In this document: in pieces, positions 43,001 to 44,802 of the stretch | How positions within the stretch are numbered: the first letter of the stretch is position 1 | How the letters are laid out: each line of letters begins with the position of its first letter | NCBI RefSeq assembly: GCF_020535545.1 | Contig: NZ_CP084752.1 | Span: 2,445,501-2,509,500, forward strand | Direction of reading: 5' to 3' | DNA: 64,000 nucleotides | Origin: Roseateles sp. XES5 | Lineage (GTDB): Bacteria; Pseudomonadota; Alphaproteobacteria; Rhizobiales; Rhizobiaceae | Made by a program: the position numbers and the translations under genes | Notes under the pieces: model-generated | Seen by the model: the letters and a program-made list of their open reading frames with translations, nothing else | The model's database searches: none | What the model was told of the DNA's origin: nothing

Positions 43001-44802
43001 AGGTGGCCTCGGGCCGCTTCGGTGTGACGACCGAGTACCTGGTCAGCGCCGACCAGATCCAGATCAAGATGGCCCAGGGTGCCAAGCCCGGTGAGGGCGG
43101 CCAGCTGCCCGGCGGCAAGGTCAGCGACTACATCGGCTTCCTGCGCTACTCGGTGCCGGGCGTGGGTCTGATCAGCCCGCCGCCGCACCACGACATCTAC
43201 TCCATCGAGGACCTGGCTCAGCTGATCCACGACCTGAAGAACGTGAACCAGAAGGCCGACATCTCGGTCAAGCTGGTCTCGGAAGTGGGCGTGGGCACCA
43301 TCGCCACCGGCGTGGCCAAGGCCAAGGCCGACCACATCGTGATCGCCGGCCATGACGGCGGCACCGGCGCCTCGCCCTGGAGCTCGATCAAGCATTGCGG
43401 CACGCCCTGGGAACTGGGCCTGGCCGAAGCCCAGCAGACCCTGGTGCTGAACCGCCTGCGCGGCCGCGTGCGCGTGCAGGCCGACGGCCAGATGAAGACC
43501 GGCCGCGACGTGGTGGTCGGCGCCCTGCTGGGGGCGGACGAGTTCGGCTTCGCCACCGCGCCCCTGGTGGCCGAGGGCTGCATCATGATGCGCAAGTGCC
43601 ACCTGAACACCTGCCCGGTGGGCGTGGCCACGCAAGACCCGGTGCTGCGCGCCAAGTTCTCGGGCAAGCCCGAGCATGTGGTGAACTACTTCTTCTTCGT
43701 GGCCGAGGAAGCGCGCCAGATCATGGCGCAGCTGGGCATCCGCAAGTTCGACGAGCTGATCGGCCGCTCGGACCTGCTGGACACCAAGAAGGGCATCACG
43801 CACTGGAAGGCCAAGGGTCTGGACTTCAGCCGCATCTTCCACAAGGTCGATGCGCCGAAGGAGGCGACCTACTGGACCGAACGGCAGAACCATCCGATCC
43901 AGGACATCCTCGACCGCAAGCTCATCGAGCAGGCAAAGCCCGCGCTGGACGCGAAGACGCCTGTCGCCTTCGCGGTCGACATCAAGAACGTCGACCGTTC
44001 GGCGGGGGCGATGCTCTCGGGCGAAGTGGCCAAGCGTTATGGCTTCAAGGGCCTGAAGGACGACACGATCTCCGTGACGCTCAACGGCACGGCGGGCCAG
44101 TCCTTCGGTGCGTTCCTTGCCCGCGGCATCACCTTCGATCTCGTCGGCGCCGGCAACGACTATGTCGGCAAGGGGCTTTCGGGCGGCCGCATTCTTGTGC
44201 GTCCTCCGGCCGACAACAGGGCGGTGCCGCATGAATCGATCATCGTCGGCAACACGGTTCTCTACGGCGCGATCTCGGGCGAGTGCTACTTCAACGGCGT
44301 CGCCGGCGAACGCTTCGCCGTGCGCAATTCCGGTGCTGTGGCCGTCGTCGAGGGCGTGGGCGACCATGGCTGCGAGTATATGACGGGCGGCGTCGTCGTC
44401 GTCATCGGCCAGACGGGGCGCAACTTCGCGGCCGGCATGTCGGGCGGCGTCGCCTATGTGCTGGACGAGGAGGGTGATTTCGCCCGCCGCTGCAACATGG
44501 CGATGGTCGAACTCGAGCCGGTGCCGGAAGAGGACGACATGCTGGAGAAGCTGCATCACCACGGCGGCGACCTCATGCACAAGGGCATGGTCGACGTGTC
44601 CGACGACATGACGCGTCACGACGAGGAGCGGCTCTACCAGCTCGTCTCGAACCACTTGCACTATACGGGCTCGCCGCGGGCCAAGGAGATCCTCGACAAA
44701 TGGGCCGAGTATCGCCCGAAATTCCGCAAGGTGATGCCGGTCGAGTATCGCCGCGCGCTCGAAGAGATGGAGCGCATGAGGATGGGGGTCGCTGCCGAGT
44801 GA
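40078..44802 (+). CDS. gltB: Glutamate synthase (NADPH) large subunit
   Basis: This 1574-residue subunit uses glutamine and 2-oxoglutarate to make glutamate in ammonia assimilation. The start at 40078 has GGAGGAAG upstream. The glutaminase nucleophile is Cys47 in [10 protein letters not shown], preceded by a basic pro-sequence that is removed in this family. The central FMN domain includes [19 protein letters not shown], and the 3Fe-4S cysteines are in [15 protein letters not shown]; the C-terminal beta-helix domain closes the protein. Residues about 982-1258 (43021-43850) differ sharply in codon use and look betaproteobacterial. It overlaps the next small gene by 4 bases. Confidence 0.96.

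Follow-up and report, generated by a model that had tools for sequence, protein, structure and literature searches.

The Roseateles-type segment found in gltB of the genome deposited as Roseateles sp. XES5 is not a real biological feature but a database artefact, correctly spotted as foreign by an earlier note on this DNA. The stretch is truly present in the database record, yet it almost certainly reflects a mix-up of sequencing data. We put the probability at roughly 83% that it arose during consensus building from the crossed read sets of two isolates of the same project. The segment was judged an artefact because a betaproteobacterial genome announced in the same paper has the mirror swap with the same break points.

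Roseateles-type patches in the window

The window, meaning the whole 64,000-nucleotide stretch analysed, is part of a 4,026,671-bp contig of the genome deposited as XES5 (G000). A two-state scan, restricted to sites where the genomes G003 (Shinella), G005, G001 and G004, four congeners, agree and differ from Roseateles asaccharophilus, delimited four Roseateles-type patches in the glt operon in all. The earlier note had overlooked three of these, as well as one in an ORF that we take to be ilvD. The features are as follows.

24987..26828, minus strand: ilvD-like ORF, containing a roughly 100-bp Roseateles-type patch at approximately 25265-25370
39994..44802, plus strand: gltB, glutamate synthase large subunit, ORF of 1602 aa, native Shinella outside the patches
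40836..40923, plus strand: small Roseateles-type patch in gltB (12 of 12 informative sites)
41591..41754, plus strand: Roseateles-type patch in gltB (38 of 41 informative sites)
43003..43829, plus strand: main Roseateles-type patch in gltB (142 of 147 informative sites Roseateles)
44985..46442, plus strand: ORF of 485 aa, presumably gltD, glutamate synthase small subunit (named from its position and from recall), native Shinella outside its patch
45260..45616, plus strand: Roseateles-type patch in gltD (65 of 73 informative sites)

Both reading frames of the operon stay open despite the patches. In GltB the Pfam domains GATase_2, Glu_syn_central, Glu_synthase and GXGXG were all above the cut-off and in order, and GltD contains Fer4_20 and Pyr_redox_2. 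The window GltB thus shares the domain architecture of bacterial glutamate synthase GltB/GltD; unlike those enzymes, the protein of the XES5 record is a chimera and probably absent from the cell. Along the greater part of gltB and gltD, identity to the 19 closest operons of Shinella type (L003-L021; 150-base windows) is mostly in the range 85-98%.

Codon usage was the feature that first set the segment apart. Between 43021 and 43850, every leucine codon had been described as CTG and valine as mostly GTG within mixed flanks, and the counts bear this out: CTG accounts for 23 of 23 Leu codons and GTG for 20 of 26 Val codons, against 40/83 and 25/62, respectively, in the upstream part of gltB and 5/21 and 11/31 in the downstream part. 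At the pooled flank rate of 45/104, a run of 23 CTG out of 23 has a probability of about 4e-9. GC content is nearly flat, at 0.65-0.69 in the segment (500-base windows) versus 0.62-0.67 in flanking gltB. The ends given in that description were right to about 20 bases, the nearest informative sites outside the main patch being 42992 and 43843. A cysteine motif of 12 residues, which we take to be that of the 3Fe-4S cluster, starts at 43579 inside the patch, so the segment does span these cysteines.

The 29 relatives used for identity profiles included 20 congeners. Within the segment, identity to the 19 closest relatives (L003-L021) drops to 69-85% in 150-base windows. Taken as a whole, the segment has 76-78% identity to the other genomes of the genus (20 of 20), none of which shares it. 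The DNA of the main patch agrees with R. asaccharophilus at 803 of 827 positions (97.1%) and with Shinella G003 at 633 (76.5%). At the protein level, R. asaccharophilus DSM 25082 ranked first, with 100% identity over 275 aa, among the best 80 of at least 597 loci that encode a relative. In a protein search with 8000 candidates scored, the at least 120 matches listed included the protein of the window itself (100%) and further ones at 93-96%; the best of these were betaproteobacterial, and the 100%, 275-aa match to R. asaccharophilus was absent among them. The impression of a betaproteobacterial style recorded in the earlier note was therefore accurate.

The other patches have the same affinity. 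Patch 40836-40923 matches R. asaccharophilus at 86 of 88 bases (97.7%) and G003 at 74 (84.1%), patch 41591-41754 at 159 of 164 bases (97.0%) and 73.8%, respectively, and the gltD patch at 336 of 357 bases (94.1%) and 264 (73.9%). At the patch in the ilvD-like ORF, identity to R. asaccharophilus is 100% versus 53-72% to G003 (60-column windows). Compared at the protein level, Shinella sp. G-2 (P0121) carries the native GltB. Of the 1574 residues compared, 88 differ from the window GltB, and 87 of these fall inside the three gltB patches (including 4 of 29 residues in 40836-40923 and 19 of 54 in 41591-41754), with a single difference among the 1215 residues outside them. Across the glt operon, Shinella G003 and R. 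asaccharophilus are 75.5% identical inside the patches and 63.6% outside, and the patch junctions adjoin stretches of local identity. Some conserved stretches of gltB are unpatched, for example near 42.81-42.94 kb (76-79%).

The mirror image in the XGS7 record

Among the 228 donor-family genomes that could be scored (of 299; 71 were unscorable), one was singled out: G508, the record 'Shinella sp. XGS7' (GCA_020535565.1), which has a Roseateles-type chromosome. The region of the query that G508 matched best, at 85%, lay upstream of the main patch. With 71 of the 299 genomes unscored, a donor species closer than R. asaccharophilus may exist. A 12.6-kb comparison of the glt operon of G508 with the R. 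asaccharophilus locus gave 82.6% identity with the tracts included, and mostly 89-100% outside them (90-column windows). The two-state scan placed Shinella tracts in G508 at 40815-42412, 43003-43829 and 45260-45616; a three-site 'Shinella' tail at 46431-46442 was left out of the patch count. The second and third tracts have the same ends as the main gltB patch and the gltD patch of the window, to the nearest informative site. At the mirrored stretches, the sequence of R. asaccharophilus DSM 25082, a genome other than the partner, is of Roseateles type.

The long tract 40815-42412 covers both small gltB patches, and the exchange is thus not fully symmetrical. G508 equals the window base for base over 40924-41590 (667 bases), despite the different classes of the two organisms, and is also identical over 41755-41912 and 41913-42428. 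These runs of identity start and stop at the window's own patches. When the GltB of G508 was used as a protein query, its own protein was missing among the matches listed.

The same reciprocal pattern extends to other conserved genes. In rpoB, four patches in G000 lie over four opposite tracts in G508. Both ends are shared by patch and tract at 3033-3855 (coordinates of locus L207); another pair has an equal 5' end, with the alignment stopping at the other, a third has an equal 3' end, and in the fourth the 5' ends are within 2 bases and the 3' ends 80 apart. A patch at C1:2656894-2657966, associated with an ORF (L161, 6672-7982) that we take to be preA, forms one mirror pair with both ends equal, and the site of the ilvD patch is mirrored as well, being 95% identical to G003 in G508. 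All nine scored patches of G000 (4 glt, 4 rpoB, 1 preA) overlie an opposite tract in G508, and in four of the nine both break points coincide to the nearest informative site. The 16S rRNA gene, located in G000 and G608 among six genomes searched, was compared with Roseateles only: the G000 gene (L209) agrees with R. asaccharophilus at 94-100% in 25 of 29 100-column windows, with identity falling to 64-80% in the final four. A mostly Roseateles-like 16S sequence would explain the genus name of the record. The patches therefore hit several unlinked conserved genes, namely gltB, gltD, 16S, rpoB, preA and ilvD.

Further patches were sought by a three-genome screen of 400 kb of G000, which flagged 49 stretches, several of them ordinary divergence; a screen against one relative gave 143 low-identity stretches and was of no use. 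Follow-up against R. asaccharophilus and G508 covered 99,198 bases, with at most 40 candidates scored per genome. It found the ilvD patch in window positions 15000-34999, the gltD patch alone in 44803-64000, and the preA patch in 2650001-2670000. No patch was found in 2570001-2590000 against these two genomes, and 2330001-2350000 had no Roseateles or G508 match of at least 90% over 100 bases. Among the stretches flagged by the three-genome screen, 12 in which two relatives agree and G000 differs lie at C1 2339841-2350181 (L145 and the start of L146), and the 11 in L145 had no patch-type Roseateles match; the region may have been acquired or may be native but of another allele. In the same screen, at C1 2386681-2386981 and 2405501-2405741, G000 is 65-68% identical where two relatives share 97-98%.

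Names, replicons and plasmids of the two records

The two genomes come from a single announcement (PMC8675264), which gives a total of 5,810,938 for Kinneretia sp. XES5 (GCA_020535545.1) and of 5,248,830 for Shinella sp. XGS7 (GCA_020535565.1). NCBI taxonomy now lists the former as Roseateles sp. XES5. The replicons of G000 (4,026,671, 895,176, 733,869, 102,922, 18,961 and 33,339 bp) sum to the XES5 total given there, and those of G508 (5,159,983, 69,886 and 18,961 bp) to the XGS7 total. The chromosome deposited as 'XES5' is that of a Shinella and the one deposited as 'XGS7' that of a Roseateles, so that the names contradict the chromosomes. In Table 1 of the announcement, the XGS7 chromosome of 4,025,507 and its plasmids do not add up to the stated total of 5,248,830, and this chromosome length is within 1.2 kb of the 4,026,671 bp deposited as XES5 (PMC8675264). 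The mismatch is perhaps a trace of the exchange. The ANI values given there agree with the strain names, and the same DNA is stated to have been used for both sequencing platforms. The G+C content of 400 kb of G000 is 64.1%, versus 68% given there for XES5. This is weak evidence, since conserved pieces of G508 (56 kb, 63.6%) and of R. asaccharophilus (63.3%) are also near 63%.

The first 12,000 bases of each small contig of G508 are 100% identical to the XGS7 plasmid record of the same size; one such record, NZ_CP084760, bears the label UNVERIFIED_ORG. The two assemblies have the 18,961-bp plasmid in common (100% over 11,995 bases; 0 mismatches in 12,000). It may truly reside in both isolates or represent cross-talk. 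It encodes a replication initiator A, a MobQ relaxase, a Tn3 transposase and HicAB (L233, G508 C3; L237, G000 C5). On another contig of G000 (C4, L236), roughly half of the 12 kb compared (positions 6176-12000) is 99.9% identical to Shinella sumterensis plasmids, which carry a heavy-metal efflux system.

Origin of the patches and consequences

In the reading we favour, the read sets of the Shinella isolate and of the Roseateles relative would have been exchanged, so that in polishing with Pilon each long-read assembly was corrected by short reads from the other species. Foreign short reads would align to strongly conserved stretches only and overwrite them, with the same clip points in both genomes. 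We infer that Nanopore sets were crossed with Illumina sets and that the patches stem from Pilon. The published description of the assembly comprises R9.4.1 Nanopore data and Trycycler, followed by medaka and Pilon, with MiSeq reads (PMC8675264). From short reads of the other isolate one expects reciprocal patches in conserved regions, with coincident ends, and such patches were seen. The chimeric assembly that the earlier note had offered as its alternative was thus right as to the kind of phenomenon, an artefact, though the evidence favours crossed reads and consensus polishing over an assembly join.

Polishing with the reads of another organism, through sample mix-up or cross-mapping, is a known kind of consensus error. 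It likewise overwrites conserved segments, leaves native flanks, affects unlinked genes and produces shared clip points. Unlike in the usual case, both partners were deposited here and the error can be read both ways. A chromosome not polished by its own short reads is expected to contain extra 1-base indels, and private 1-nt indels numbered 32 in about 285 kb of G000 versus 23 and 26 in two relatives, a small excess. As this excess is not clear, there is room for read mixing by another route. One such route, which would also make the segment an artefact, is mixed material (barcode cross-talk or mixed colonies), whereby each read set would have contained both species and consensus building or polishing would have blended the conserved segments. 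The scant indel excess, the 18,961-bp plasmid common to both assemblies and the rapid barcoding kit named for the libraries (PMC8675264) fit this explanation. Reciprocal overwriting of both genomes, however, is not what a minority contaminant should produce, and the wholesale swap of name and chromosome indicates crossed sets over mixed material, which we regard as a distinctly less probable origin.

A biological origin is far more doubtful still. The earlier note had proposed homologous replacement by a distant gltB, leaving a mosaic enzyme. Under natural recombination, a Shinella ancestor would have acquired Roseateles DNA in gltB and gltD and retained a working enzyme, and the clean in-frame patches of a single donor type (94-98% to R. 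asaccharophilus), the junctions near local identity and the open frames of gltB and gltD all agree with this. Interspecies replacement mosaics are known from the penicillin-binding protein genes of naturally transformable bacteria. As in those mosaics, sharp-edged foreign patches of identifiable donor type lie inside a homologous gene with native flanks. However, transfer in mosaic genes is one-way and leaves the donor-type genome unchanged, whereas G508 has the mirror image; moreover, rpoB and 16S rRNA are affected and the mosaic is absent from Shinella sp. G-2. Recombination would demand a mirror exchange across two classes with shared break points in gltB, gltD, rpoB and preA, together with patching of ilvD and, on the G000 side only, 16S rRNA, in two products of one study, and with none of it in 20 of 20 congeners or, at the protein level, in G-2. 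The proposal of a mosaic enzyme by homologous replacement is therefore not supported, given the reciprocal swap in those four genes, the patched 16S and the native G-2 protein; we consider natural recombination highly improbable. Equally improbable is that two bacteria from frog skin, belonging to different classes of proteobacteria, reciprocally exchanged conserved segments and both possess mosaic core genes. Least credible of all is that the segment is native and has an unusual choice of codons, or that it arose by gene conversion from another copy of gltB. The codon change itself speaks for it and nothing else does, while the best matches are betaproteobacterial and 0 of 20 congeners share the segment. 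Conversion from a second copy was rejected, as the segment matches once in its own genome. A plasmid donor was likewise rejected: 30 plasmid records match, the best being from Deinococcus at 83-84%. An exact 40-base pattern scan of genome contigs found nothing.

Among the papers listed by a literature search on the two strains, no notice of the exchange appeared. Names from these records are in use: according to a 2025 metagenome study, 'Shinella sp. XGS7' is among the species enriched in pond sediment (PMC12174113), although the chromosome of that record is of Roseateles type. Comparison of mirror images is a cheap way of separating such artefacts from recombination. Two public 'complete' genomes have names at odds with their chromosomes and contain core genes that are chimeras of two classes, among them rpoB and, in the window genome, 16S rRNA. 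The XES5 and XGS7 records can yield false cases of horizontal transfer and misleading marker-gene trees, and no claim of a mosaic enzyme should rest on the gltB of the XES5 record.
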